From NCBI GenBank assembly GCA_028753945.1, contig JAPNXP010000001.1:14622501-14686500 (forward strand): 64,000 nt of DNA. The letters are read 5' to 3'. The DNA comes from Hexactinellida sp. DTS-2022 (lineage: Eukaryota > Porifera > Hexactinellida). A model generated the notes under the pieces. It was not told where the DNA came from, ran no database searches, and saw nothing but the letters and a program-made list of their open reading frames with translations. The first letter of the stretch is position 1. Every line of letters starts with the position of its first letter. Made by a program: the position numbers and the translations under genes. Below, piece by piece: positions 4,252 through 64,000 of this stretch.

Positions 4252-5045
4252 GGGGCTGACTGAATAGTGGAATCGAGTGGAATTTGACTGAATAGTGGAA
4301 TCGAGTGGAATTTGACTGAACAGTGGAATCTAGTGGAATTTGACTGAATAGTGGAATCGAGTGGAATTTGACTGAACAGTGGAATCTAGTGGAATTTGAC
4401 TGAATAGTGGAATCGAGTGGAATTTGACTGAACAGTGGAATCGAGTGGAATTTGACTGAACAGTGGAATCTAGTGGAATTTGACTGAATAGTGGAATCGA
4501 GTGGAATTTGACTGAATAGTGGAATCGAGTGGAATTTGACTGATTAGTGGAATCGAGTGGAATTTGACTGAATAGTGGAATCTAGTGGAATTTGACTGAT
4601 TAGTGGAATCGAGTGGAATTTGACTGATTAGTGGAATCGAGTGGAATTTGACTGAACAGTGCAATCGAGTGGAATTTGACTGATTAGTGGAATCGAGTGG
4701 AATTTGACTGATTAGTGGAATCGAGTGGAATTTGACTGAACAGTGGAATCGAGTGGAATTTGACTGAACAGTGGAATCGAGTGGAATTTGACTGAATAGT
4801 GGAATCGAGTGGAATTTGACTGAACAGTGGAATCGAGTGGAATTTGACTGAATAGTGGAATCTAGTGGGATTTGACTGAATAGTGGAATCGAGTGGAATT
4901 TGACTGAATAGTGGAATGGAATTGGATTAAATTGTTAAACACTACGTATATGCTATAAGGTATGTGTGTATCATATTACGTTAATTTTCGCCCATGTAAA
5001 TATCTTTGCAACGATTAAACTAGTGTTCCACTATTAGTCAGCCCC
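4252..5045. mobile_element. Satellite-cored TIR element, 9-bp duplication
   Basis: Left terminus GGGGCTGACTGAATAGTGG, right terminus its near complement CCACTATTAGTCAGCCCC. CTAATTCAG occurs at 4243-4251 and 5046-5054. The left three quarters is a tandem array of about two dozen 28-bp units (variants tgaatagtgg, tgaacagtgg, tgattagtgg; tcgag or tctag) that begin with the terminal sequence itself. A 9-bp duplication fits Mutator-like elements, though 7-8 bp is possible depending on where the ends are drawn. It is inserted in EGF coding sequence. Confidence 0.8.
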
Positions 5046-19815: not shown

Positions 19816-20151
19816 ATCTTTAAAGTTGAAAAATACCTTTTAAGATTTTGTAAGGGTCAATTATCTTTGATTACAGATCAGTTCATCTCATATAATTATA
19901 TGCTTATACACTGAAAGCAACTAAATATAGACTACAACCTAATATTAGCTAACAAGTTATATTATGCAAGAAGTTTTATTACCTAAGTTATTGCATACGT
20001 GAGAGTAACTTATATGTCTTATATTAAATTACATAAAACCCCTGGAAATAAATGCAATAAATACCATTTTACGACTATAATCAGTAAATAAGATTACAGG
20101 GTTCAATTTTCGTATAAATACTCAATAATATAACTTTTAATATAATTCGAA

Positions 20152-21270
20152 ATGATATTAACAATCATCCTAAACTCAGTGTTTATATCTATTTTCCTAA
20201 TATTCAGTGGATACTGGGGGTTTGTTTTCGCCAGGAGAATCCATTGCTGCAGAAAATACAAGAGAGGAGTAGCGAGATGTCTCTCAGGTGATTCAGGTTA
20301 TTTAAATAAACAATTTTATTATCATTATGAAACTGAAATATGGAAAAATACTCTATTACTCTTGATCACTTTTTTTGAGATTATTACTTTTATACTTTTC
20401 TTCACAACAAATACCATACAGCATTTCCTCACGTACCATAAAGTTGGTAATAGTACACTCGAGTTACCATCCACTGATTGTACAAGTTATCATAAGCCTG
20501 CACTGAATCAAGTTAATATCATAGATACGGAAATTCCTTTCTTAAATGGATTTAGGGGAATAGCGAGATCTGCTGAGTTATTTATACTTGCTCTCAGTGC
20601 ATGTTTGATGAATTATATAATTATTCGTATCAAGAAAATCAAACAACCGTACAACACATTGAATTCTCGGCTCTTATTCATCCTAACCACCTTGTTAAGT
20701 ACAGTCATCATCCTAACTGGGTTTATACAATATACCACTGTTATTAGTACTGTATTGTTCTTTGTTATTATACCCACATATCTCGCTATATTTGTTCGCA
20801 TTTCCAAACGATTCAAATGTGCCTTGCTCCAGAGAGCTTTGGAGCGTCTCACACAACACGGTTCCAACAAGGAAGAGATGAAACAATACAGATACTGCAA
20901 GCACACTCTTAATATTATAACATGCGGATATCTGTTCTTAATATTATCAGAGACATTAGTCGATCTTCGAGAATTATTGATTAGTGCATTATTCTTTGGA
21001 GACTGTTATTTCCCGTTTAGTTTGTTCAGTTCGTTAAACTATGTTATCCAAACTAAAGAAGCTGTTGAAACATTTTTGATAGCAATTCATTATATGGATT
21101 TGGTTGGCAAAGTTATTTTCTTTGTATCTGCATTTTTATGCTTGTCACTATTCGCGTTCGTCACTATCTGCAATTGGATTAAGCATATTCACAATCGGAT
21201 TTATGGCAACAAAAAAATAATGTATAGTGCTTTTAATTCTGGCCTGAAAGAATTATTTGTTAATAATTAA
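20152..21270 (+). CDS. Putative seven-transmembrane protein, copy 1
   Basis: An intact 372-residue single-exon frame beginning MILTIILNSVFISIFLIFSG. Hydrophobic segments suggest seven membrane spans, around residues 5-27, 66-90, 140-162, 175-198, 202-222, 258-285 and 325-348. Between them are basic loops such as RRIHCCRKYKRG and RIKKIKQPYN, and an N-glycosylation sequon (GNST) in the loop after span 2. The order fits a receptor-like 7TM fold, but I see no DRY, NPxxY or other class-defining GPCR motif, so the family is unknown and possibly lineage-specific. It converges with the inverted copy at 22052-23095. Chemoreception is only a guess from the copy number and single-exon structure. Confidence 0.75.
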   Translation: MILTIILNSVFISIFLIFSGYWGFVFARRIHCCRKYKRGVARCLSGDSGYLNKQFYYHYETEIWKNTLLLLITFFEIITFILFFTTNTIQHFLTYHKVGNSTLELPSTDCTSYHKPALNQVNIIDTEIPFLNGFRGIARSAELFILALSACLMNYIIIRIKKIKQPYNTLNSRLLFILTTLLSTVIILTGFIQYTTVISTVLFFVIIPTYLAIFVRISKRFKCALLQRALERLTQHGSNKEEMKQYRYCKHTLNIITCGYLFLILSETLVDLRELLISALFFGDCYFPFSLFSSLNYVIQTKEAVETFLIAIHYMDLVGKVIFFVSAFLCLSLFAFVTICNWIKHIHNRIYGNKKIMYSAFNSGLKELFVNN

Positions 21271-22051: not shown

Positions 22052-23095
22052 TTAATCCAATTGCAGAATGCAGATAGTGACGAACGCGAATAATGACAAC
22101 CATAATAATGCAGGAACAAAGCAAATAACTTGGCCAACCAATTCCGTATATTGCATTACTTCGAAAAATGTTTCAACAGCTTCTTCAGTTTGGATAACAT
22201 CGTTTAACGAACTGAACAAACTAAACGGGAAATAACAGTCTCCAAAGAATAATGCACTAATCAATAATTCTGGAAGATCCATTAAGACCTCTCCTAATAT
22301 TATGAACACATATACACATGTTACAGTATTAATAGTGAGCTTGCAGTATCTGTACTGTTTCATCTCTTCCTTGTTGGAACCGTGTTGTGTGAGACGCTCC
22401 AAAGCTCTCTGGAGCAAGGCACATTTGAACCGTTTGGAAGTGCGAACAAATATACAGAAATATGTGAGTACAATAAGGAAGTACAATACAGTACTAATAA
22501 CTGTGGTATATTGTATAAACCCAGTTAGGATGATGACTGTACTTAACAATGTGGTTATGATGAATAAGAGCCGAGAATTCAATGTGTTGTACGGTTGTTT
22601 GATTTTCTTGATACGAATAATTAGATAATTCATCAAACATGCACTGAGGGCAAGTACAAATAACTCAGCAGATCTGGCTATTCCCCTAAGTCCATTTAAG
22701 AAAGGAATTTCCGCATACGTGTATATGATATTAACTTGATTCAGTGCAGGCTTGTGATAAATTGTACAATCAGTGAAAGGTAACTCGAGTGTACTATTAC
22801 CAACTTTATGGTACGTGAGGAAATGCTGTATGGTATATGTTGTGAAGAAAAATATATAAACAATAATCTCAGAAAAAGTGATCAAGAGTAATAGAGTATT
22901 TTTCCATATTTCAGTTTCATAATGATAGTAAAATTGTTTATTTAAATAACCTGAATCACCTGAGAGACATCTCGCTACTCCTCTCTTGTATTTTCTGCAG
23001 CAATGGATTCTCCTGGCGAAAACAAACCCCCAGTATCCACTGAATATTAGGAAAATAGATAAAAACACTGAGTTTAGGATGATTGTTAATATCAT
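22052..23095 (-). CDS. Putative seven-transmembrane protein, copy 2 (tail shifted)
   Basis: A 347-residue frame about 90 percent like copy 1 and with all seven hydrophobic segments. Relative to copy 1 a 7-bp insertion (attctgc) after TIC of the last span shifts the frame to ILQLD and a stop. The last 30 or so residues, the basic cytoplasmic tail, are lost; their coding sequence is still present downstream at 21975-22050. Other differences are mainly conservative substitutions in the spans, plus a two-residue insertion in the second extracellular loop (IIYTYAEIPF against IIDTEIPF). It may be functional with a shortened tail or a young pseudogene. Confidence 0.7.
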   Translation of the reverse strand: MILTIILNSVFLSIFLIFSGYWGFVFARRIHCCRKYKRGVARCLSGDSGYLNKQFYYHYETEIWKNTLLLLITFSEIIVYIFFFTTYTIQHFLTYHKVGNSTLELPFTDCTIYHKPALNQVNIIYTYAEIPFLNGLRGIARSAELFVLALSACLMNYLIIRIKKIKQPYNTLNSRLLFIITTLLSTVIILTGFIQYTTVISTVLYFLIVLTYFCIFVRTSKRFKCALLQRALERLTQHGSNKEEMKQYRYCKLTINTVTCVYVFIILGEVLMDLPELLISALFFGDCYFPFSLFSSLNDVIQTEEAVETFFEVMQYTELVGQVICFVPALLWLSLFAFVTICILQLD

Positions 23096-23536
23096 TTCGA
23101 ATTATATTATAAGTTATATTATTGAGTTTTTATACGAAAATTGAATCCTGTAATCCACTTAGCATTATTGATTTACTGATTACATAAAATGGGATTTATT
23201 GCATATATTTCCCCCGATAAACATTTTATGTAATTTAATATAAATATACAAGTTATTCCTCTCACGCATGCAATAACTTAGGTAATCAAATTTCTTGCAT
23301 ATTTAACTTGTTAGCTAATATTATGTTATAGTCTACTATTTAGTTGCTTTCAGTTTAAGCATATAATTATACGAGATGAACTGATCTGTAACAACGATAA
23401 TTGACCCTTACAAAATCTCTAAAGGTATTTTTCAACTTTAAAGATATTGTTGACTAAAGTTAAATCGTTTTACCCCTAAATTGGGTCATTATTTATCAGT
23501 GATTGTGAACAAGGTTCAAAATGGCAAACAGTAGAT

Positions 23537-49260: not shown

Positions 49261-50680
49261 TAGAATAGACAAATTTGTTATTTCAGAAAGAAAGATATTT
49301 AGACTAAATCATAATAATATATGCTCATGATCCTCGGTAACTTAATACGTTAATTCTTGCTAAAAAAGTCATTGATACGAAAATTATTCTTAACTGACAA
49401 ATATGTCTTTTTTCGGGTTTATGAGTAGCAAATCTGAAATCAAATTGATTAATAATCAAAAGTTTGGAAATGAAGAGTTTATAAGGGGAATGAAAGGTTT
49501 GAGTTTAACTTTTACTAAATAGACTATTTATGCGATTAATGGGACTATTGAAGTACTAACTTATAGGGTAAAATTTATTGGTCAAATGTATTGACCCAGA
49601 ATTATTTGTATTTATTTTTTCAGCCAATTAAATTGCAGTCTCAGTTTGGCTTTCTATAATGCATACTTAACAGCTGATAGTTTTGACACCTTTTGAGAGG
49701 GAAGACATGAATATTTTTCTTAGATATTAGAATTTGTTCCTAGAAACATTATTTTCCACCTCCCTGCCAAATTTTAAGTCTACAGCTCTTACCAGTTCCT
49801 CAATCAATACCGAACAAAAAAAATCTAAACAAATCATTGTGATTTAATATATAAGATAGACAAAATTAGGAAACGAAAATGTTGATTACGAATTTAGCAA
49901 CGTCAAGTAGTAAATATTAGCTACTGTTCTAAGGAATATTAACACAAATCTTGAGAACTAAACATCAGGTATAATCATGTGCGCCAAGTTTGGGGTTTAG
50001 GGGGGGGGGGGGGCTGGAGGGTCACTGGGAGCCCCCATCTTTGACTATATTTTCAAAACTTGACGCCTATGGGTATAATACTAAGTTGTGTTATTCTTGA
50101 GAACAATGACATCAGTTTATAATAATTTGCATATCAAATAATATTTGAGGAACAATGGAGTAAATAACACCTCGAGGTAAATTTCACATTAAAAAATCAA
50201 TTATACAAAAGAAGATGGAGAATGGAAGAATGGACAAATTAATGTAAAAATATTTACATAAATTCCTTTGAATCGAAGAACGCTTAACTTTCCAACGTCA
50301 GATCGATACATAATGTATATAAGGTAGCTCGAAACTGAATTTCATATCTTATAGAGAACGCTCATGGGACCTAAATTGTTTAAAAAATTGCATCGTACAA
50401 TTTTCCACCGATTAAGCGCTCCGTAAAGCAAGTGTTAATTAATAATTAATTAATTTTAAATAGTATACTGTCAAACTACGCTTAATGTGGTCAATGGTTA
50501 ACAAAGTAAAATCAACATAAGTTAATTCAAAATATTTACGGTTAATTGGGCCAAATTTCGCTTAATCGGGTCAAACTAAATATGGACCAAATTGACTTAA
50601 ATTCTAGCGGAGTTGATTAAATTAAATATATCAGACAACAACTGTATAACTATCTCTTTTCACTAGAAAATCAATAAAGA
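49261..50680. other. 5' flank of the secreted-precursor gene
   Basis: Mostly AT-rich. 49610-49855 is an inverted copy of 55865-56220 (ccagttcctcaatcaatacc against its complement). A decayed 'cgactccgcttaatag' MITE lies at about 50465-50620. Only a weak TATA-like tgtataacta is seen just upstream of the ATG. Confidence 0.5.
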
Positions 50681-53238
50681 ATGAGGATCTCCAAAGTACT
50701 CATCGTGTTTGGCGTTGTAGCGATGGTGGCGCTACTCAATGCCCGTACCACAGGTGAGTATTAATAATATTACAAACAAATAACCTTGTGTCCTTAGGCC
50801 AAGAACTGCCATTAATACATATGTATATTTGTTTAGATCAGCAAGTTCAGATTAAAGAATTGTAAGTTTAGAGTAAAATATAAACTTTTATAACCGTTCA
50901 TTTAATCCTACTTTGCAATCGTATACGAACATGCTATTCAAATCATCCCTGTCAGTATACATAGTTACAACAGTATTACTTTAGTCGTATATGGAAGGGA
51001 GAGTGCGAAACTGATAAATTATCTTTTTAAGCGATCAAATTTGGAGCATTAGAATTTGAGTGGTACCATAAAGTATGTAGATTAAATACTTTATGCATGA
51101 CGAAAGGCTATTTTTATAACTGTAGAATATGTCCACTGTCACCATAAATAAATTATTGAGGTACATTATCTCCAATTAAATATTTATGTAAGACGAGTGA
51201 CGGTCCACTGACGGATAACTAAACTACCCCGCAGTCCTTCATTTTCAATAGTTAATCACAACATTAAATATGAATAATATAATAATTATAATAGTAGGGA
51301 AATTCGTGTTCAGCATACTTGAATGCGCTTGTTTATTCCTTATCACTTTAATACAATCCGAACAAACAATAAAATGAACAAACATACAAACAAACAACCA
51401 TTGAGTTTTGATAATATTGTTATATCATCTATAAATATATATACTTAATTTCTGGAATTAGAGAAGTAGCATGCATAATAATATTAAACGCATTAAGGGA
51501 TAATAAGTGGTATGTACATGTATTATACACGTATAGCTTATTAATTTGTATCATTTGGTAACAAACAAGCTATAGACGAACAAGTTGACTGCTGCCATTA
51601 CACCTATCACACATGTGTTTTTATCCCGATTGAGACCAAATTACAGAGCCTTAGTACTACTCTAGTGCATTTAGAATAATCACATAATAGGATTAATATG
51701 GATTATAGATTAACTCACGGGTATAATTATATAACATTGATATTGTATTATTTAGTGACGCGAAAGCTGAAGACGAACAGGCTGACACTGACATAGAAGC
51801 AGTGGATGAAGATGCTGATTGTCATCCCTATTATCAAATGTCTGACGAGAAGTGAGTAATCGAGGAATTATAAAATTTGTATTAGCATGGGCTTAATTAT
51901 GATGTTATAAAAATAATCTGCTAATGCCTAGAAAATCACAGTAGAAAAAGTGTTATATACAATAGATTCTCGTAAAAGGGATGCATAGGGACTGTAGAAA
52001 TTTGTTCGTGTTAATCAGAGTTATTTGCATACATTCGTATAGGCTAGGAGAAATTAACCTTGTTGTTGTATCTATATTCGTACTAACGAGAGTCCACTTA
52101 AGTAATGCATCTAATTAATTCGCAAAATCTGCAAGTTTCTTTACAAGAATTATGGTTCCTTTGAACTTGTTGAGTTTATTCAAATCTGAGTTGTACCATT
52201 TGACAATATATAGATAGGATTATCGAATAACTTAATGTTAAAATGTTTGTATCATTTAGTGACCTAGCAGCACTAGACGAAGATGCTGCTGAATTAGCTG
52301 ACTTTTTCGCATTGAGTGAGAAGTGAGTAACTGAGGCATTAATTACTATTTCATTGGCTTCATATACATCGGTCAGTACGTTTTAAATATAAAATCCTGC
52401 TTTATAGTGAGAATTTTTAATAATAAAATTTACTTCACCAGTGCTTAAAACAGTGGTTCCAAACCTTTTTTAACTCGTGAACCCCCTGATACCCGAAAAT
52501 TTGGTGGTGCACCCCCAGGACATAACTAAGTCTGAAGGATTCTATTGAGAAGGGCATCGATTATTAAAACAGGATGGGGGGGTGAACATCATATGGTCTC
52601 ATTAGGATGAAAAGCGTCAGTATGTAATAATATTGAACAGATATAAAAGAGTAATTCCCCAATAATTAATTGGCAGATCATTAACTTTTACGGAGTCGGC
52701 TCACTGTAGTCTTACTACAAACAACTTCAAAGAACCACAGAGAATTATTGCAAAAAATTGATATCATTGCGTATCTTCGGTGATAACGCGTTGGGTTTTT
52801 GCTTGAAGTCATAAGCCCCAATAAAAATATACAATAAAATTATATTCTTTTATCATCATCCAAATTCCCACTTCCCTTTCTCTGAATCTAAATGAACCCG
52901 ACGTACCTGATTATACATCATGTAAATGTAAATACAATCCGAATATATATAATAAATGGCACGAGGGGAGCTGGCTCCAAATTGATGAGCGCTTAATACT
53001 CTGACACTTGAAAAATAGCAAAATTTGCAAGAAATAACTATCCTTAGAACCATATGATATAATTTTTGTATTATTTAGTGACGATGAAGCAGTGGATTCA
53101 AACGAAGAAGCTGAATGGTTCCGCAACTTAATCAAACACATTCGTAGAAACCGTCGTCGCAGACTCCGTAGATGGCTTCGATATCTGCGTAAACTTCGCC
53201 GTAGAAGATGTCACCGTAGGAGAAGTGAAAGCGAATAG
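50681..53238 (+). CDS. Small secreted precursor, acidic pro-region and Arg-rich C-terminus, copy 1
   Basis: Five exons, 50681-50753, 50837-50861, 51756-51851, 52260-52322 and 53079-53238, join in frame (phases 1, 2, 2, 2) into 138 residues. Exon 1 is a signal peptide (MRISKVLIVFGVVAMVALLN). Exons 2-4 and the start of exon 5 are strongly acidic, with repeated DEDA-type motifs and SDEN/LSEN exon ends. The rest of exon 5 encodes about 36 residues with some 18 arginines in an L/W/Y-punctuated, potentially amphipathic helix, ending SESE. An acidic pro-piece with a cationic product is the layout of many antimicrobial-peptide precursors. A matrix or mineral-binding peptide is the alternative. All splice sites are canonical (acceptors tttag). 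I recognise no family. Confidence 0.8.
52450..52930. mobile_element. hAT-related insertion in intron 4 of copy 1
   Basis: cagtggttccaaacctttttt then cgtgaaccccctgatacc is a typical hAT terminus. It is absent from intron 4 of the sister copy, where the flanking cctgcttaaaagtac runs on. The right boundary is uncertain because gtcggctcactgtag-type sequence beyond about 52690 is shared with copy 2 (60605-60665). Confidence 0.6.
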
Positions 53239-53255
53239 GCTTCTACAGTTATCTA

Positions 53256-53372
53256 GGCGCTCTTCAGTAATTTAGGCAGTAATTCAGTAATTTAGACAGT
53301 AATTCAGTAAATTAGGCAGTAATTCAGTAAATTAGGCAGTAATTCAGTAAATTAGGCAGTAATTCAGTAAAT
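53256..53372. repeat. 20-bp minisatellite in the 3' UTR of copy 1
   Basis: About five copies of aattcagtaaattaggcagt just after the stop codon. The same array follows copy 2 at about 60205-60335. Confidence 0.9.
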
Positions 53373-53481
53373 TTGTGCCGGAGTATACGTATACTACGTA
53401 TATATGACATATATCCTATATTCATTTAAATTCAGTTTAGTTTGCTTAGTAACAACTCGTGTTACTCAATTGATTTCCACA

Positions 53482-53487
53482 AATAAA
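53482..53487 (+). terminator. Poly(A) signal of copy 1
   Basis: AATAAA 245 nt past the stop codon. The corresponding site of copy 2 reads aaatat. Confidence 0.6.
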
Positions 53488-53597
53488 GTATCTGATTAAT
53501 TGATAAGCAAGCTGCTTTTACAATGCCGGTTGTATTCAATTTTTATTATGGAATGTAACGAATAAATAAAACGAAAATCATATATCCCTCTTCTACG

Positions 53598-54800
53598 TCA
53601 CGATTTTCCTTTTTGTAATATAATATCTGTTACGTTCGGAATCAATCGCCTCGTTCCTGTTGGAAGCTCCACGTGTGGTTTGAAGGCCGCATACACAGGT
53701 TGATTATATTGCAAAAAATCATATAGCAGGTATTACGACTGGTCGATGGCCTAATATCAGTGATTTATCTAGGATTTTCGTGGCTGGCACTTTATTATGG
53801 AGGTATAAAATTTCCGGCACCCTAAAGCACGGGCGTCGCACGGCTCTGAAAAATCTCCGGCCAAACAGTTAAAGTGGTCCGGCCAAAACAGGACCGTCCG
53901 ATATAATATAGTGAAATATAGGAAGCACGTGGTCCAGTCGGGCACGTGCTACGCTCATAGGCGTAGAATAGGGGGGGCAGGGGGGCGTCGCCCCTCCATG
54001 ATTTGGCCATGGGGAGGGGGCGGCCATTACAAAAATCCTATCCCGCCCCTCCATGAAATGTGTGTTCTCTCACCCTTTTACCCCAATATTACGTGCTGAT
54101 TTTATTCGAGAAACATAATACAGCCTAATTCATGTATGAATCATGATACCTTCTTAGATGCGCATAATCTATGTATGTTATTAATTGGTTGAAACCACAC
54201 ATTCATTATAACATCACTGATTCAATGTAACAATGTTAATAGTTTATGACAAAATCAAAATTTGTTATCTCAACAAGTTTTATACGTTTTCTTAATATTT
54301 AAGCATGCACGCAGTTAGTGTTGACCAGTTCTTCCCGGTTTAAATATCAGTTTTGATGTCCGTCCAAATCAATTTGGATAGGACAAAATCAAGTTACTTT
54401 TACTAACTTATTCTAGGCACATACTACCTAAATTTTCCTGGGGGTAGACCGTAGACGGTAGACCCCCTAATTTTTTCCTCGCTCGCTATCGCCCCTCCAT
54501 CGCAAAACTATTTTGCTACGCCAATGGCTACGCCTATGTAAAGGTATTAGCCATAATTCGTAACAGTATAATTCAATGATGCGGCACTATTTTAAGGAGG
54601 TAAATTGCTACGGTGCACAAACTGTTGTTTATCCAAGCATTTCTGGACCAGAAAATATGGCCATACACCCGACATCTAATTAATGCCAGCCCGGCACCTA
54701 AATCGAACCGCAATTCACACACTTTTTGACCACAACTGATGCCTGGCCGGAACCAAAAGTGCCGGTCAGGCATCTAGATAAACCCCTATAGTCTATGCAC
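53598..54800. mobile_element. Nested elements
   Basis: Outer: tatctaggattttcgtggct (about 53767) to ggtcaggcatctagataaa (about 54785), facing ends. Inner: cataggcgtagaatag (about 53957) to tggctacgcctatg (about 54538), a hAT-like pair with GC-rich cgcccctccat repeats. No transposase frame. Confidence 0.6.
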
Positions 54801-54984
54801 AAATGACCATTGTATATACTATAGAGTGACATTTAACAGTTTCTAATGTACAGCGTCTAGGTAGCAGAACAGGAAATGACTAAATTCTTTTAGGCGTGGC
54901 CTCCTACGCAAGTAAATTCTATCCATGGATCTCATTTTTGGTTTACAGAAAATAATACCCAGTAAGCGCCGCAATATTGACACT

Positions 54985-55550
54985 AATTGGAACAGAAAGC
55001 TGAAAATTTGTATACAGGGGTAATTTTGTACTGCGAAGACGATTTATTGGTTTTTGAAGAGAAATATTCACATTTAAAGGTGACAAAATATGTTAGCAAA
55101 TTAATTTCGAGGGTTTGTTAGTATATAGAATTACAAGAAATCATCAATTAGTGTAAATAGAGTATGCATAAAATAAAGATTTTCTGAGACTGCAATCTGA
55201 TTGAGTGAAAATATATTAACCAATTAGATTATTTGTCTATTCTATTCTATTGCATTTTGATTTTTGTATTATTTGGATTCGAGCTATCCTTATCGTGCAA
55301 TTAAAGTTTATTGAGCTATTAATATGAGAATTTGAATTTCCCAAACAAATTACATTGTATAGCATTGTTATTGCGGGGGCTTTATGAAGAATATATTTAA
55401 TACACCACAGAGATGTAAATTCTAAAATGTTTAGTTTCAAGGCGCAGTAAGGCCGCGCAGCAGTCGTCAATTGAGGCGTGAAGCCCCAAACCGTCGCAAA
55501 GCGACCGAGACCGAAGGGATCGTAGTGATAATTTGTACACCGATTATACA
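54985..55550. mobile_element. Dispersed repeat, inverted copy
   Basis: Inverse of the 21490-21840 and 48455-48750 repeats (aaagctgaaaatttgtatac ... aatagacaaataatctaatt), then a mini-hairpin block (aaggccgcgcagcagtcg; gtcgcaaagcgaccgaga). Confidence 0.65.
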
Positions 55551-55614
55551 AGAATATTGGATATTGGACCTTCCTTGGCACTCATAATTCTATATGTTAC
55601 ATACAGTATAAATA

Positions 55615-56904
55615 TGGGAAAATTCCAAAAATACTCAAGTTTTTTAAAAATTTCCAAATATACTCAACTTTTTACTGATACTCAAATATAAAACTAGATC
55701 TTTCCGAATCTACTCAAGTTTTTCAAAATAATTCCAAATCTACTCAAGTTTTTCAGAATAATTCCAATTCTGCTCAAGTTTTTTCAATAAATTCCAAATC
55801 TACTCAACTTTTCAGTAAATTCACAGATCTACTCAAGTTTAGAAAGGCTATATTTAGTCTATCTTATATATTAAATCACAATGTTTTTGTGTTTGTTTGT
55901 TTGTGTATTTGTTCAGAATTGATTGAGGAACTGGTAAAAGCTACAGACCTAAAATTTGGCAGTGGGGTGGGGAATACTAGTATTGTATGTACAAATAAGT
56001 TCAATATCTAAAAAGATATTCAAATCTTCCATCACAAAAGGTGTCAAAACCTTTAGCCAATTAAATTCGAGGGGTGTTCCAGTATGGATTAGCAGCTAGC
56101 ATTTCAATTAGTATAATCGAGTGCTTTAGTGTCTGTCAAATGTTAAGTATGCATTATGGAATACTGAGAAAGTAATCTAATTGATCGAGAGGAAGTTCAG
56201 GCATTTAATCAGTTATTTGTGTTCTGTCTGTCTAGCCATACATTTATAACATTCCATTGTGTTATTTGTTATCAAATTATTATCAATCAATACAATAACT
56301 TCTCCACGTCCCAAAGTTAGGGGTCCACTGGTACAGTTTCTTAGTGATATTTAATTATATATTTGGAATTGGTATATTATTATACATGGACAAGCTCATA
56401 TATCTAGAAAATTATCTGTTCAAATTTGCATAAATATCCAAATTATTTAATCTGTCCTTATAGAAACCTGTAGCTAGGATGAACGGATATAAATAGACAG
56501 CTAGCGGCCAACCATCAAGAACGACATTTAATTTGAAAAGGAGATGCTTTAAATACAAGCGAGGGCCGTAGGCCCGAGTACAAGTTGCAAGGACGCGCGT
56601 AGAGCAGACGAGCAGATTGTACTAATAAATATTTTTTGTGGTTGGGATCTCCATACTAGTTTCAATAATCCAATAAAACTTGAGTATATTCGGAATAATC
56701 CAATAAAACTTGAGTATATTTGGAATAATCCAATAAAACTTGAGTATATTTGGAAATAATCCAATAAAACTTGAGTATATTTGGAATAATCCGGTAAAAC
56801 TTGAGTATATTTGGAAAAACTTGATTATATTTACAAATTAGTTGAGTATTGTTGAGTATATTTGGAAATTTTTAAAAAACTTGAGTATTTTTGGAATTTT
56901 CCCG
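55615..56904. mobile_element. Foldback-type element, satellite arms, TATAAATA duplication
   Basis: Terminal repeats of about 60 bp starting YGGGAAAATTCCAAAAATAC, extended by tandem arrays of aattccaaatctactcaagt at the left and the complement at the right. TATAAATA is exactly duplicated at 55607-55614 and 56905-56912. The core is an older dispersed repeat (55860-56220). Confidence 0.8.
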
Positions 56905-56983
56905 TATAAATATTGTTACTAGTTTAATTCAATAAATAATTCGATTAAAACTTATGAAAATACAGTATCGACAATGTATACTA

Positions 56984-57576
56984 CAGTAAACATTGGATTT
57001 AACGACACCAGCTTTAGCGACAAATTGCTAATAACGACCTATTTCTCTTGCCCAGAAGTGCGCAGCACTATTTTGCACACACCTTACTTCGGGTACAACG
57101 ACATGCCAAATAACGACACTTCGAATTTATCGACATATTTCTATGCCCACTGCCTCGAAATTCCATCGGATATTACGACTTTAGAATCCAAAATGCGTAT
57201 AGCTCCGGGCTCGATTTGTCTAAATAGTGAATAATTGAGTTTTGATTGATCTAAATATTAACCAATTAAGATTCCCCTGTTTGAATCAACAGCTGGCTTC
57301 TTATCAAAATGAAAACGTATTTAAAGCCATTAGTATGGAATTTCTCTATCATCGTCATGGATTCGAGCGGAGGTGTCAAAAGAAAACGCTTTTCTTTTGC
57401 TGAAAAATACGAAATTTTAAAGGAGCTTGATGCAGAGCGAAGAGACCATTCATGAGCGGAAACATACATGCATTATTTATATTAAAAAGTCAATCGGGAG
57501 AATGGTTTTGTGCCGTATCTCGGAGGTTGTCGTGTTTCAGAGGTGCCGATTTTAGAGGATTACCTGTCATATACTG
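56984..57576. mobile_element. Pogo/Tigger-type relic, TA flanks
   Basis: Starts CAGTAAACATTGGATTTAACG after TA and ends GATTACCTGTCATATACTG before TA. The two ends are not complementary, so this may be two fused CAGT-type elements. It contains the start of a transposase frame at 57357-57455. Confidence 0.55.
57357..57455 (+). pseudogene. Tigger/CENP-B-type transposase N-terminus
   Basis: A 32-codon frame with VKRKRFSFAEKYEILKELD, resembling the first helix of the CENP-B/pogo helix-turn-helix (K-R-K-R-x-S-F-x-x-K-x-x-I-L-K). It stops after RRDHS. It links the window's CAGT-ended MITEs to a pogo-type source. Confidence 0.55.
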
Positions 57577-58049
57577 TACTACATTGTATATCATCATATT
57601 TATACCTCATCAATTGTGATTGGTTCGTGTTCAAAAGAGTGTTGCACCATATGAAAATATGAATAAATTTCGGATAGAAAGTATATAATGCATATTTGGA
57701 GGTATTCGGAAGACTTCGGGCTAATGGGAAGAAGTTCTGTCTCCATTCCAGGAGTTGTTTAGGTTTAAGATCCAATCTCTTAGCAAGTTCTGAATGTAGA
57801 TCTGAGATATAGGCACCTGAGGAACTGCTATTGAGAATTGAAGGTTTCATTAAATTTAGTGTTCTTGAGACAAAGTCCCTATCTGCAACTTCATCTTCGT
57901 TGTTTCTATATGGTATCACTTCTTCTTGGATAAAGTTTGAAGTTGAGAATAATTGATCATCCGTTGTGTTATTAGTCTGATCCACTATTACGTTATCATC
58001 TGAATATAAGTCTTCTCCAACTGAAATTGTTCTATCACTAAGCTTTACC
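57560..58049 (-). pseudogene. Acidic frame downstream of the integrase relic
   Basis: Open from an acceptor-like ttttag at 58050 (VKLSDRTISVGEDLYSDDNV) through DLHSELAKRLDLKPKQLLEW. It probably belongs to the C-terminal part of the integrase-bearing transposon on the same strand. Not otherwise recognised. Confidence 0.35.
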
Positions 58050-58146
58050 TAAAAATTAGCATATAAACAAAATGTATTAAGTATGCAAGTTTAAATGTAT
58101 GGTCCCAAAAGTAAGAATGAACATGTACTTAATTAGTCTTTATTTA

Positions 58147-58972
58147 TTAATTAATTAACTGGGTATGCACTAAAGTAAGGTCAGACCATACTAAAGTAAA
58201 GTCAGACCATTGTTCTTTCTTTACCATTAAAGTTTTGCTGAGATATCTTTTAATCCCTTTGTGGTAAGATTCTGCGAGGCCGTTAGTTTGCGGATGATAA
58301 GGTGCAGAAAAAATTAACCTGCATTTGTAAGTCTCGTGTAGTTCAGCCATTAACTTGCTCGTAAGTTCTTTTCCATTGTCAGTTATGATCTGAACTGGTG
58401 CTCCTTTACTACAATATACTGAAAAAACAGCTCTCGCTACCTCAACTGTTTCTTTATTTCTTAATTCTCTGGTTTCGACCCATCTCGTAAAATGGTCTAC
58501 CATAGTAAAAATATATTGGTAGCTATTCGATAGGACCAAAGGTCCTGTCAAGTCCATTCCAACTCGATACCATGGTCTTGCAATCACTGGCAGAGGATTA
58601 AGAGGTTCCATTGGTCTGGTAAGTGAAAATGCATTACGCTTACAACGATCACAATTGTTTACATACTACTCACGGATTATATCTCGACATTTAGGCCAAA
58701 AGAAACGTTCTTTTGTAATATCGTAAGTATAGTTTGCACACTGATGACCTAAGTTGTCAAGCATGTCCTTCATGATATCGAGTAATTCATGTTCCTGAAC
58801 AACCATTGGCTTAGGACCATTCTCCAAATACAGTTTCTCTTTTATGATAATGTATTTCTTTGAAGTTTTACGCAAGACACGCTTGGAATTTGATCAGTTA
58901 GTCCAGAATAGGAACCGTTTAAAAGGTATTGATAAACACGTTGATATTGCGAAGTTTCCATAAACTTACCTT
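58147..58972 (-). pseudogene. GIN1/Ginger-like integrase relic
   Basis: The minus strand holds an H2C2 zinc-binding region (58666-58875: HELL...GHQC, then CDRC after an in-frame stop) followed by an rve integrase core. The core has D in GMDLTGPL, D in IITDNGKE and E in PQTNGLAE, giving a D,D-35-E triad. The N-terminal part (YQRVYQYLLNGSYSGLT, about 58960) precedes a frame change. The layout without reverse transcriptase resembles GIN1/KRBA2 and Ginger DNA transposons rather than Gypsy, but a truncated retroelement cannot be excluded. It is inactive: at least one stop and one frameshift. Confidence 0.7.
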
Positions 58973-59129
58973 TCAAAATTGATTTTAAAGAGAAAATGGC
59001 AAAAAGTAGTATCAGAAAAATATATAATTAGGAATATTGTTTACAACCAAAGAGTGTTGTGATTTAGATATATACCCCAGTAATCAACAAATTAAACGAA
59101 GCCCTATCGAAATATGAAACCATACAGTA

Positions 59130-59255
59130 ATGGAACTGAAAACGTTGCATTATTAGAAGGGGGACCATTTGGCCCAAAAATATAGAAATTTGGGCGAAAT
59201 GGTCCCCCAGGAACAAATATCCAGGGGGGACCATTTGGACCAGAACAATATGATA
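59130..59255. repeat. 'gggggaccatttggccc' inverted/direct repeat
   Basis: gggggaccatttggcccaaa, its near complement cgaaatggtcccccaggaac, and a third copy within 120 bp. Probably the end of another MITE. Confidence 0.5.
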
Positions 59256-59295
59256 CATACGTAGCTAATAGCATATACGTAGTATTTAACAATTT

Positions 59296-59617
59296 AATCA
59301 AATTCCACTCGATTCCACCATTCAGTTAAATTCCACTCAATTCCACTGTTTAGTCAAATTCCACTCGATTCCACTAATCAGTCAAATTCCACTCGATTCC
59401 ACCATTCAGTCAAATTCCACTCGATTCCACCATTCAGTCAAATTCCACTCGATTCCACTGTTCAGTCGGTTTTTAGAAAATTCACTCGATTCCACCGTTC
59501 AGTCAATTCCACTAAAATTTAGTAATTCCACTGGATTTCACTGGATTTCACTAGATTCCACTAGGTTCCACTAGATTCCACTAGGTTCCACTAGATTCCA
59601 CTATTCAGTCAGCCCCC
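59296..59617. repeat. 28-bp satellite array, reverse orientation
   Basis: Units attccactcgattccaccat, ending ctattcagtcagccccc, the complement of the left terminus of the element at 4252-5045. A one-ended member of the same family. Confidence 0.8.
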
Positions 59618-60204
59618 TTTAGGAATCTAAAATGATTTCTTAATGATCCTATCTGAAGTGATAGTATCTAAAGTTGTGTCAGTTTTACTATGTTCGAACC
59701 AGTGGCGCAAACAGGGGGTGGGGGGGCGTACGCTCCTCCGTAAAAGTTGAAAGGGAGTGCGGTGGTGCGGATGTTACTGTTTCCGCTGGGTAAAAAATAA
59801 AATGTTCAATATAATTTAGGATAGCAAAATATACTTATAATTCTTTCAAAAAATGTCATTTGTTGTAATCATTTTTTCGAATGGGGGTGTATCATTAGCT
59901 AGCATTATACTACCCGCTAGTGCGCTAGTAAAGTTTACCCATTAGCTATAGGGATAGGGGATGTATGATTTTCGTTTATTTATTCGTTACATTCCATAAT
60001 GTTTAATTGAATACAACCGGTATAACATTCGCAACGGTATTTCCTTGGAATACAAGCAGGGCGTAGCTGGTAAGATCAGCTTGCTTATTAAACAATCAGA
60101 TGCTATATTTGTGGATATCAAGTGAGTAACACGAATTGGTAGTAAGCAAACTAAACTGAATTTAATTGAATATTGGATTTAAGTCATATATATGTAGTAG
60201 ATAC
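59618..60204. other. Spacer and 3' duplication edge
   Basis: A hAT-like end (cagtggcgcaaacagggggt) at 59700. From about 59950 (tgattttcgtttatttattc) the sequence is the reverse complement of 53530-53600, marking the 3' edge of the gene duplication. Confidence 0.5.
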
Positions 60205-60335
60205 TCATGCCTAAATTACCGAATTACTGCCTAATTTACTGAATTACTGCCTAAATTACTGAAATACTTCCTAAATTACTGAATTACTGCCTAAATAGCT
60301 GAATTACTGCCTAAATTACTGAAGAGCGCCCAGAT
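60205..60335. repeat. 20-bp minisatellite, 3' UTR of copy 2
   Basis: Units ttactgaattactgcctaaa, the complement of the array after copy 1. Confidence 0.85.
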
Positions 60336-60347
60336 AACTGTTGAGGC

Positions 60348-62950
60348 CTATTCGCTTTCACTTCTCCTACTGCGACGACATCTACACAGAGCTCTACGGA
60401 GTCTTTTGTTTTGGCGACGTAATTTACGATAGAGCTTATATTTGGAATAGATTCTACGTGTGAGTTTAAGAAGGCCACGGATGGCTTTGCCTCTGCCTTC
60501 AGCTTCTTCGCCACTAAAGAATACAAACATTAGATTATATGGTTCTAAGGATCCTAATTCTTGCAAATTTGGCTATTTGGCTATAAAACTTGGCTATAGC
60601 AATAATTCCCTGTGGTTCTTAGAAGTTGTTTGTAGTAACACTACAGTGAGCCGACTCCGTAAGTAAGTTAATAATCTGCCATTTAATCATTGGAATTACT
60701 TTTGATATCTGTCAACAGCTTTTTTAATGTACTTTTAAGCAGGTTAATATAATATCAAAAATTCTCACTATGAAGGAGGATTTTATATTTAATACGGGAT
60801 GTATAAGGAAGCCCATAATATAGTAATGCCTCAATTGCTCACTTCTCGCTCAATTCGAAAGTGTCAGCTCCTTCGTCAGCATCTTCGTCTAGTGCTGCTA
60901 GGTCACTAAATAATACAAACATTTTAACATTAAGGTATTCTATAATCCTATATAAATATTGTCAAATGGTACAACTCAGATTTGAATAAACTTAACAAGT
61001 TCAAAGGAACCATAATTCTTGTAAAGAAACTTGCAGATTTTGCGAATTAATTAGATGAATTACTTAAGTGGACTCTCGTTAGTACGAATATAGATACAAC
61101 AACAAGGTTAATTTCTCCTAGCCTATACGAATGTATGCAAATAACTCTGATTAACACGAACAAATTTCTACAGTCCCTACACATTCCTTTTACTAGAATC
61201 TATTGTATATAACACTTTTTCTACCGTGATTTTCTAGGCATTAGCAGATTATTTTTATAACATCATAATTAAGCCCATGCTAATACAAATTTTATAATTC
61301 CTCGATTACTCACTTCTCGTCAGACATTTGATAATAGGGATGAAAATCAGCCTCTTCATCCACTGCTTCTATGTCAGTGTCAGCCTGTTCGTCTTCAGCT
61401 TTCGCGTCACTAAATAATACAATATCAATGTTATATAATTATACCCGTGAGCATGGCCTACTTAATATACGGCTATATATGTCGCCGAGAAGGCCATAAA
61501 ACAAAGAGGCCAGTTTCTAATTTTCAAAATGGAGAATTGATCTTTATTCGAATAATTAGCAATGATAGAGCTGAAAAGTGAATTATATTTTTGAGATAAT
61601 GAGATAATTAACACTTAATTCATTATTAGGTAATGACTCACTATCTCAAAAATTATTGAAGTTAGGCATAGAAAATGTATTATCGATGGATAGGAATTTA
61701 CCAATTCCGGATAGATCAGTACTAGCCTAGTTTACATAACATTAATAGTTTTTGAGTTATGGCACATTTTAGGAAATATACATTTTGCATGGCAACCAAG
61801 GAATGTGTCAACATTCCATTTATAATTTCGATATATTTTATTCTACTACTTCTGGGTATAACCATGTTCCAATTTTGAACATTTATAACGCGTTTAACTA
61901 TGTTAAAAGTATGCTAGAAAAACAAGATAATTCGCAACCAAAATAACCATAACGTCATCAAATGATGACATATCACAATTCTGGAGGGTGCTATGTATAC
62001 CTGGATACCATCTATATATATAATACTCCTATATAGTTATAATTCACTTTTCAGCTCTATCATTGCTAATTATTCGAATAAAGATCAATTCTCCATTTTG
62101 AAAATTAGAAACTGGCCTCTTTGTTTTATGGCCTTCTCGGCGACATATATAGCCGTATATTAAGTAGGCCATGCCATGAGTTAATCTATAATCCGATATG
62201 TGATTATTCTTAATGCACTAGATTAGTACTAAGGCTCTATAATTTGGTCTCAATCCGATAAAAACACATGGGTGATAGATTTAATGTCAACAGTCAACTT
62301 GTTCGTCTATAGCTTGTTTGTTACCAAATAATACAAATTAATAAGTAATACGTGTATAGTACATGTACACACCACTTATTATCCCATAATGCGTATAATA
62401 ATATTATGTATGCTACTTCTCGAATTCCAGAAATTAAGTACATATTTATAGATGATACAACAATATTATTAAAACTCGATGGTTGTTTGTATGTTTGTTT
62501 GAATGAATGTTTGTCCAGATTGTATTAAAGTGATAGGGAATAAACAAGCGCATTCATAGTTGACATATAAACTAACTTTCAACTGTTTGGTAACAAGTAT
62601 GCTGAACACGAATTTGGAAAATTATACATTATTGATATTTATTGTTCGGATTTACTATTGAAAATGTGCGACAGTGTGGATAGTTTACAGTTAAAAATAT
62701 ATTATTTCGTATTTATAACATACTTTACGACATACTTTACCACTCAAATTCTAATGCTTCAAAAAAATACAATTTCTCAGTTTCGCACACTTCCATATAC
62801 GACAAAAGTAACACTGTTGTTACTATGTATACTAACAGGGGTAATTTGAATTGCCTGTCCGTATATGATTGCAGAATAGGATTAAATGCAGGGTTATAAA
62901 AGTTTATATTTTACTCTAAACTTACAATTCTTTAATCTGAACTTGCTGAT
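60348..62950 (-). CDS. Small secreted precursor, copy 2 (5' exon not in window)
   Basis: Exons 62926-62950, 61314-61409, 60843-60905 and 60348-60513 correspond to exons 2-5 of copy 1, with the same phases and canonical splice sites (exon 4 donor gtgagc). The signal-peptide exon is not seen before the window ends; intron 1 is invaded by a minisatellite. Exon 3 differs from copy 1 at only a few bases and exon 4 at several. Exon 5 is very different in the cationic part: it reads LLKLTRRIYSKYKLYRKLRR and a CRC pair near the end. It nevertheless ends in the same RRSESE and identical stop context. Tail-to-tail with copy 1, 7 kb apart. The coding frame of exons 2-5 is intact. Confidence 0.75.
61452..62173. 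mobile_element. Foldback element in intron 2 of copy 2
   Basis: Arms of about 135 bp, perfectly complementary by eye, starting CATGGCCTACTTAATATACG. Flanks ccgtgag (61445-61451) and ccatgag (62174-62180) differ by one base. The sister intron of copy 1 reads straight through the empty site. Confidence 0.85.
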
Positions 62951-62969
62951 CTAAACAAATATACATCTA

Positions 62970-64000
62970 TATTATTAAATCTCGATTGTTGTGTGTTTGT
63001 GTGTGTGTTTGTTTGTCCGGATTGTATTAAAGTGATGGGGGAATAGAAACCGCATTTATATATGAGATATAAACTAACTTTCAAATGTTATAATTGGTAA
63101 ACAAATGATATAATAGGTAAACAAGTATGCTGAACACGAATTTCGCATTTATAAATTTCTAATATTTGTTGTTGTTTACACAATAAGGTAAACAAATTGA
63201 CGAATATTCAAATCGACATAGAAGTTAGCTCTCAACGGGTATTATAGGTAAACAATTATGCTGAACACGAATTTCGCATTTATAAATTTATAATATGAAT
63301 ATTTGTTGTTGTTGTTTACACAAAATAGGTAAACAAATTAATGAAAATTCAAAATTAACCTAGAAGTTTGCTCTCAACGGGTATTATAGGTAAACAATTA
63401 TGCTGAACACGAATTTCGCATTTATAAATTTATAGTATGAATATTTGTTGTTGTTGACACAAATAAGTAAACAAATTAATGAAAATTCAAAATTAACCTA
63501 GAAGTTTGCTCTCAACGGGTATTATAGGTAAACAATTATGCTGAACACGAATTTCGCATTTATAAATTTATAGTATGAATATTTGTTGTTGTTGACACAA
63601 ATAAGTAAACAAATTAATGAAAATTCAAAATTAACCTAGAAGTTTGCTCTCAACGGGTATTATAGGTAAACAATTATGCCGAACACGAACTTCGCATTTA
63701 TAAAATTATAATATGAATATTTGTTGTTGTTGTTTATACAAATAGGTAAACAAATTAATGAAAATTCAAAATTAACCTAGAAGTTTGCTCTCAACGGGTA
63801 TTATAGGTAAACAATTATGCTGAACACGAATTTCGCATTTATAAATTTATAATATGAATATTTGTTGTTGTTGTTTACACAAAATAGGTAAACAAATTAA
63901 TGAAAATTCAAAATCAACCTAGAAGTTAGCTTTCAACGGGTATTATAAGTAAACAAGTGTGCTGAACACGAATTTCGCATTTATAAAATTCTAATATGAG
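62970..64000. repeat. 'ggtaaacaa' repeat element with ~140-bp minisatellite
   Basis: Begins tctcgattgttgtgtgtttg (like 32820), then at least six ~140-bp units containing ctgaacacgaatttcgcatt, tttgttgttgttgtttacac and gtattataggtaaacaa. It runs to the window end. A partial relative lies at 62480-62620. Confidence 0.8.

Follow-up and report, generated by a model that had tools for sequence, protein, structure and literature searches.

Genes A and B and the family to which they belong

The stretch of DNA analysed here, referred to as the window, covers 64,000 nucleotides of Hexactinellida sp. DTS-2022 (assembly GCA_028753945.1, contig JAPNXP010000001.1, hereafter C1, positions 14,622,501 to 14,686,500 of the forward strand) and contains two genes, A and B, encoding small precursors composed of a leader, an acidic carrier or pro-region, and a variable Arg-rich end, the payload. 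Gene A (50681–53238, plus strand) comprises five in-frame exons bounded by AG/GT splice sites and encodes an open protein of 138 amino acids. Gene B is its mirror image on the minus strand, tail-to-tail with A and with the same five-exon layout. The exon phases (1, then 2-2-2) are identical in both genes, both proteins terminate in SESE, and in the alignment the two coding regions match exactly over their final 23 bases. An initial annotation, made from the letters of the window alone, had described two tail-to-tail genes with a common layout and about 24 identical bases at the end of exon 5, and on these points it was confirmed by the exon models. It had placed the pair at 50681–62950; both genes are real, but exon 1 of gene B lies outside those coordinates (Table 1). 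The pair is also real, but its locus on C1 holds four genes (A–D) plus a terminal-exon relic, and the genome holds 12 leaders.

The leader peptide was searched in the assembly from which the window comes (18 contigs, 112.4 Mb), with matches considered up to E = 10. Leaders were found at 12 places, every one with an E value of 1.2e-4 or better: genes A–D on C1, six genes in tandem on contig C7 (196.7–217 kb), one on contig C13, and one at C1:13962408 (C1b). The further paralogues for which the initial annotation had proposed a search are thus present. Complete in-frame models with AG/GT sites were obtained at 11 of these places; the model of C1b is partial because its exon 2 was not found. The relic, E, is a terminal exon between C and D with the shared 3′ untranslated region (UTR); an extra full gene at this position was considered and rejected, as no phase-2 acceptor was seen by eye. 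An array of 20-base-pair (bp) repeats in the 3′ UTR was common to the C1 genes and most C7 genes. A search with the repeat pattern, allowing up to three mismatches, returned at least 54 matches, all of them at A–D, at relic E and at four C7 genes out of six, and the reversed-pattern control returned none; by eye, C7_1, C7_4 and C13 showed weaker repeats.

All family proteins start with a leader beginning MRISK or MKISK and sharing the stretch ...GVVAMVAL.NA. Between groups, nonsynonymous differences per site (Nd/N) in the leader were 0.02–0.15 versus 0.25–0.61 for synonymous differences per site (Sd/S), and therefore the leader is under purifying selection as a protein. Judged from its composition, it is probably a secretion-type signal peptide. 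A TAG acceptor-like motif was located 13–14 bases 5′ of the ATG in all 12 leader exons (e.g., window 50630–50680), which makes an upstream non-coding exon or trans-splicing possible in the 12 genes. Exon 2 measured 25 nt in all 10 models of C1 and C7 and 22 nt in C13, and it was followed by acidic exons throughout the family models.

The chemistry of the payload depended on the group: Arg-rich and cationic in C1, His/Cys/Pro-rich and carried by repeated exons in C7, and of the CX3C...CX3C type in C13 and C1b, where this peptide follows an acidic stretch. Without the leader, the C7 proteins contain as many as 41 Cys, 48 His and 58 Pro residues. A unit of acidic part plus payload is repeated four times in C7_2, four times in C7_3 and three times in C7_5, before the terminal exon. 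In D the terminus is CGGK, reached through a frame shifted relative to that of A–C. The description of small precursors, with a secretion-type leader (by composition), an acidic pro-region and an Arg-rich end that varies, was upheld.

Exon 3 of A–D is related to the C7 payload exons: none of 500 codon shuffles reached the score in 16 of 16 comparisons, and for gene A exon 3 none of 500 did so in each of four comparisons. The same result (0/500) was obtained in the single comparison of gene A exon 4 with C7_1 exon 4. Exon 3 of A–D holds a short CHPYY stretch where the C7 exons hold long His/Cys/Pro payloads. Whole terminal exons exceeded codon shuffles in several pairs (A in 3/3, the others mixed). 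A DNA homology of Arg-rich and His-rich payloads through the single-base change between His and Arg codons was rejected, since 75–113 of 500 shuffles reached the score when the payloads of A–D were compared with C7_1.

No match over the cut-off was obtained in Pfam for the seven family members scanned, nor in NCBIfam for the five scanned. Protamine P2 (PF00841) was rejected for gene B (16.9 bits versus a cut-off of 25); the score probably reflects Arg composition, and the secretion-type leader also argues against it. The PDB search with gene C and the C13 tail gave no meaningful match. Searches of prokaryote and viral contigs with gene A and C7 queries yielded 120 and 19 pattern stretches, respectively, with no confirmed relatives among them.

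Table 1. Positions of the exons and 3′ UTR arrays of genes A and B (window coordinates unless C1 is given).
Feature	Position	Strand	Remarks
Gene A exon 1	50681..50753	+	ATG, leader MRISKVLIVFGVVAMVALLNA, phase 1 end
Gene A exon 2	50837..50861	+	25 nt, phase 1 to 2
Gene A exon 3	51756..51851	+	acidic module, short CHPYY stretch at end
Gene A exon 4	52260..52322	+	acidic module
Gene A exon 5	53079..53238	+	acidic start, Arg-rich payload (charge +20 in 36 amino acids), SESE, stop
Gene A 3′ UTR array	53263..53373	+	20-bp repeats, family-typical
Gene B exon 1	C1:14686819-14686747	-	247-319 bases past window end
Gene B exon 2	62926..62950	-	
Gene B exon 3	61314..61409	-	
Gene B exon 4	60843..60905	-	donor GTGAGC
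Gene B exon 5	60348..60513	-	short acidic start, Arg-rich payload (charge +21 in 45 amino acids), SESE, stop
Gene B 3′ UTR array	60208..60323	-	20-bp repeats

Divergence of the payload exon

Nucleotide divergence between A and B was 2.1% in exon 3, 2.9% in intron 3, 12.7% in exon 4, 22.9% in the first 120 bases of intron 4, 13.6% in its last 60 bases, 37% plus gaps in exon 5, 8.8% at the start of the 3′ UTR and 13.5% in the 3′ flank. Among A, B and C the corresponding ranges were 2–6% for exon 3 and intron 3, 14–28% for the segments of intron 4 (14–33% with D included) and, past the payload, 9–18% for the 3′ UTR start and the 3′ flank; intron 3 of A, B and C differed from that of D by 19–20%. 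The close alignment of exons 3–4, introns and 3′ flanks reported previously thus holds mainly for exon 3 and intron 3, and non-coding divergence is higher from exon 4 on.

Fisher tests were restricted to the pairs A–B, A–C and B–C, leaving out those with D, and compared exon 5 with pooled flanks (the terminal 60 bases of intron 4, the start of the 3′ UTR and the 3′ flank). In DNA alignments, exon 5 diverged by 0.37, 0.28 and 0.29 in A–B, A–C and B–C, respectively, versus 0.13, 0.17 and 0.15 in the pooled flanks, and the excess was significant in A–B (p = 1.6e-7; 50/135 versus 28/219), A–C (p = 0.014) and B–C (p = 9e-4). Codon alignment of the payloads, which tends to inflate DNA differences, gave 0.44, 0.49 and 0.38 for the same pairs. 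Depending on the alignment, the payload exon among A, B and C therefore shows 1.7–3.4 times the pooled flanking non-coding divergence. Pairs with D diverged by 0.40–0.49 in exon 5. The claim that a coding block outpaces its neighbours is borne out against the pooled flanks in all three tested pairs, but not against the end of intron 4 in A–C.

For C7, 13 exon units from C7_2, C7_3, C7_5 and C7_6 were compared in 78 pairs, which are not independent; the units of C7_1 and C7_4 were omitted. Median divergence was 0.279 in the payload (37% gaps), 0.091 in the acidic part (9% gaps), 0.112 in the upstream intron (22% gaps) and 0.089 in the downstream intron (7% gaps). With exon 5 above its flanks among A, B and C and the payload median the highest in C7, it is the payload that changes fastest in either array. 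The payload exons of C7_1 and C7_4 showed only 4/120 and 4/163 differences, with 12 gapped bases, and their introns 3 and 4 differed at 1/87 and 2/250 positions. These two genes are a recent pair, and most payload turnover therefore predates their duplication.

The initial annotation had read the fast block as a signature of diversifying selection, to be checked by the nonsynonymous (dN) and synonymous (dS) divergence of exon 5. In the codon sense this was not upheld. Payload dN and dS were 0.56 and 1.10 in A–B, 0.67 and 1.50 in A–C, and 0.52 and 0.55 in B–C; with D the values were near saturation (0.93 and 0.90 in B–D, 0.96 and 0.89 in C–D, 1.21 and undefined in A–D). Because synonymous divergence in the payload is as high as dN, classic diversifying selection is not shown, and positive selection by dN/dS, as initially put, is not supported.

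The N-terminal half of the payload did not exceed codon-shuffled controls in three of six gene pairs, and the C-terminal half was clearly related in A–B, A–C and B–C. The alignable C-terminal tail diverged at about the rate of the flanks, with Nd/N and Sd/S of 0.14 and 0.10 in B–C (23 codons) and, over 13 codons, 0.22 and 0.13 in A–B and 0.26 and 0.13 in A–C. From the high dS, an N-terminal half within shuffled controls in three pairs and a tail at flank rate, payload turnover looks more like replacement, insertion or deletion (indel), or saturation than plain accelerated amino-acid change. Divergence through a frameshifted pseudogene copy, which had been named as a possible refutation, does not fit A–C, although D does end in a shifted frame.

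The step from exon 3–intron 3 to intron 4 among A, B and C suggests local homogenisation, and the likeness of exon 3 and intron 3 exaggerates the payload contrast. It is accordingly conceivable, if on balance doubtful, that the contrast is mainly one of concerted evolution, in which conversion keeps the leader, carrier, some introns and UTR alike while the payload keeps its real age without special selection. The same step, the larger distance of intron 3 to D and the high payload dS favour this explanation, but divergence returns to 9–18% past the payload, so that conversion would need to skip a block of 100–150 bases repeatedly, and the same payload contrast is found in C7. It concerns the mode of divergence and is compatible with a defence function. 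Duplication, homogenisation of the frame parts and payload turnover by replacement, indel or repeat change is the most economical account.

Proposed function of the precursors

The conserved leader, the phase-locked small exons, the acidic pro-exons, the divergent payload block and the 3′ UTR repeats of C1 and C7 are read directly from the sequence. With moderate confidence, we interpret the products as secreted precursors that would free host-defence-type peptides kept neutral by their acidic pro-regions. Throughout the 12-leader family the precursor would consist of leader, acidic carrier and variable payload, the leader directing the product out of the cell. The pro-regions of A, B, C and D carry charges of −26, −24, −22 and −24, and the payloads +20, +21, +24 and +14, with a net charge past the leader of −8, −5, 0 and −10; the acidic part (−22 to −26) could thus balance the positive charge of the payload (+14 to +24) until the latter is released by proteolysis. 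Once released, the C1 peptides would be Arg-rich, partly amphipathic helical antimicrobial or host-defence peptides, and the combination of a helix with poly-Arg tails is described as raising the potency of antimicrobial peptides (AMPs) (PMC12371492). Peptides with a defence or barrier function, binding metal or held by disulphide bonds, may come from the paralogous His/Cys/Pro-rich exons of C7, and the product of the CX3C pair may be a small disulphide peptide. The payloads would have diversified after gene duplication, through the turnover of blocks and through repeat or indel changes within the payload.

The hydrophobic moment at 100 degrees was higher than in shuffled sequences of equal composition for B (p = 0.017) and C (p = 0.008), and the moment of whole payloads peaked at 95–105 degrees in A, B, C and E. 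The host-defence interpretation, already proposed in the initial annotation, is favoured by the precursor plan, the fast payload and its recurrence in C7, but has lost the support of codon-level diversifying selection. Several further observations weigh against it. The moment was not significant in A (p = 0.162), D (p = 0.115) or relic E (p = 0.466), it peaked at 130 degrees in D, and A–C are not independent in these tests. Payload dS exceeds dN in A–B, A–C and B–C, and an excess of dN is marginal and confined to B–D and C–D. In A–C, exon 5 and the final 60 bases of intron 4 show equal divergence (0.275 in each). Inspection by eye revealed no conserved processing site where the carrier joins the payload, and payloads rich in His, Cys and Pro are untypical of known cationic AMPs.

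A skeletal or matrix role, also raised initially, was weakened but is retained as an unlikely alternative. The products would then be secreted Arg- or His-rich polypeptides that template silica or bind matrix, as glassin, perisilin and silaffins do. The His-rich repeats of C7 and the polycations recall silica-precipitating proteins, and the acidic parts could bind minerals; on the other hand, the hypervariable part is the payload itself, and the C7 exons are rich not only in His but also in Cys. Glassin is described with His-rich and Pro-rich domains and perisilin with His-rich domains, both as hexactinellid silica proteins (PMC10772126). The C7 payloads share the richness in His and, with glassin, in Pro, a likeness by description and not by sequence; in that account neither protein has the Cys-rich CHP repeats found here or an Arg-rich sister group on the same leader. 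In the papain family, 17 loci were examined out of 32 match rows and 12 active sites were readable, with Cys in 10, Ser in one and Gly in one. With Cys at 10 of these 12 sites, no clear silicatein set was seen among them, which may also speak against this role, although silica could still be formed by other proteins. A silicatein-like papain-family exon with Ser replacing the catalytic Cys (CGSSWAF) was located at C1:17465738-17465995.

Signalling prohormones of neuropeptide type with several peptides per precursor are very improbable: a leader of the secretion type, the acidic spacers and the repetition of units resembling peptides in C7_2, C7_3 and C7_5 would suit them, but no dibasic sites were seen by eye between the C7 units, convertases would be expected to cut up the Arg-rich payloads, and the units inside one precursor differ from each other.

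Beyond the host-defence interpretation, we put forward tentatively, as a possibility somewhat short of even, that the leader-and-carrier cassette is a general chassis for secretion and neutralisation near the base of animals, into which chemically unrelated payloads are exchanged as whole modules. Such payloads would be helices rich in Arg, multi-peptide precursors with metal-binding His/Cys/Pro peptides in tandem, and disulphide peptides of the CX3C type, and leader, carrier and UTR would stay recognisable while the payload modules turn over. If so, the family would be a sponge counterpart of venom and AMP superfamilies, possibly shaping the microbiome.

In design the family comes closest to mussel myticalins, the bipartite AMPs of Hydra and conotoxins. 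Payloads inside one conotoxin superfamily are mostly Cys frameworks, unlike the family described here, in which Arg-rich, His/Cys/Pro-rich and CX3C payloads stand behind a single leader. Conotoxin superfamilies, the best-known precursors of this kind, are described as conserved except in the mature part, which is hypervariable, with accelerated nucleotide substitution and a predominance of nonsynonymous changes (PMC10561478). Conserved precursor parts and a hypervariable end are shared with them, but a clear excess of dN over dS was not found in the present payloads.

The myticalins and modiocalins of mussels are described as multigenic, with a conserved signal peptide, an acidic pro-part and a hypervariable Arg-containing mature part, and seven synthetic myticalin peptides showed antimicrobial activity (PMC5577615). 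A hypervariable Arg-containing cationic part with conserved precursor parts is shared by the C1 group only. According to the same account, the cationic mature part of myticalins comes directly after the signal and is separated by a Lys-Arg site from an acidic extension at the C-terminus, with signal and mature part in one exon (PMC5577615); here the order is leader, acidic carrier and cationic payload, the carrier occupies several small exons, the payload is encoded by the terminal exon, and in paralogues it is of the His/Cys/Pro or CX3C type. The comparison is one of plan, not of sequence. Hydra AMPs are reported to be mostly bipartite in charge and to form clustered paralogues, and the arminin and periculin genes to be confined to the genus Hydra (PMC10945409). 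Small precursors, bipartite charge, a secretion leader (by composition) and paralogue clusters (on C1 and C7) are common to both, by description and not by sequence, but the available description of arminins and periculins contains neither a multi-exon modular carrier nor swapped payload chemistry.

No sponge hypervariable AMP family of this kind was found in open-licence PMC text. To our knowledge, gene-encoded antimicrobial peptides of sponges are little known; Suberites domuncula reportedly has one of the ASABF type, which resembles the present family by type only, as a gene-encoded antimicrobial peptide of a sponge. Precursors with a conserved leader and a variable payload are already known, and to our reading it is the use of one leader with three unrelated payload chemistries, together with modular acidic exons, that is new. 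If the products are host-defence peptides, the family offers a compact and legible example of unrelated payload chemistries delivered behind a single leader in a sponge, and its 12 defined loci give direct experimental access to the way in which sponges manage their dense microbiomes. The faster divergence of a coding block than of its flanks, seen in two paralogous arrays, also makes the family a convenient model in which to study payload turnover.

Other features of the window and genome

Intron 2 of gene B contains two perfectly complementary arms of 137 bp, 450 bp apart (window 61451–62174), with no counterpart in the matching place of gene A; they are probably a young terminal-inverted-repeat insertion. 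A tandem array of 138-bp repeats (about 6.4 copies) occupies 63109–63999 in intron 1 of gene B, up to the window edge. Between A and B, a retroelement integrase core was detected at 58147–58665 on the minus strand (Pfam rve, 52.9 bits).

The search with the Antennapedia homeodomain gave three matches at E ≤ 1e-5, the best 46% identical, with no Hox gene seen among them, although a homeodomain split by an intron could escape such a search; the lack of a seen Hox gene fits a sponge. Two similar inverted reading frames resembling multi-span membrane proteins are located at 20146–21270 (plus strand) and 22052–23101 (minus strand); the former, the only one scanned, had no Pfam match. Tandem repeats of 28 bp and of 10 bp, of the TTCCACTCGA type, occur at 59298–59603 and 4470–4934, and a similar repeat appears to underlie a repetitive reading frame of 154 amino acids at 4470–4934.

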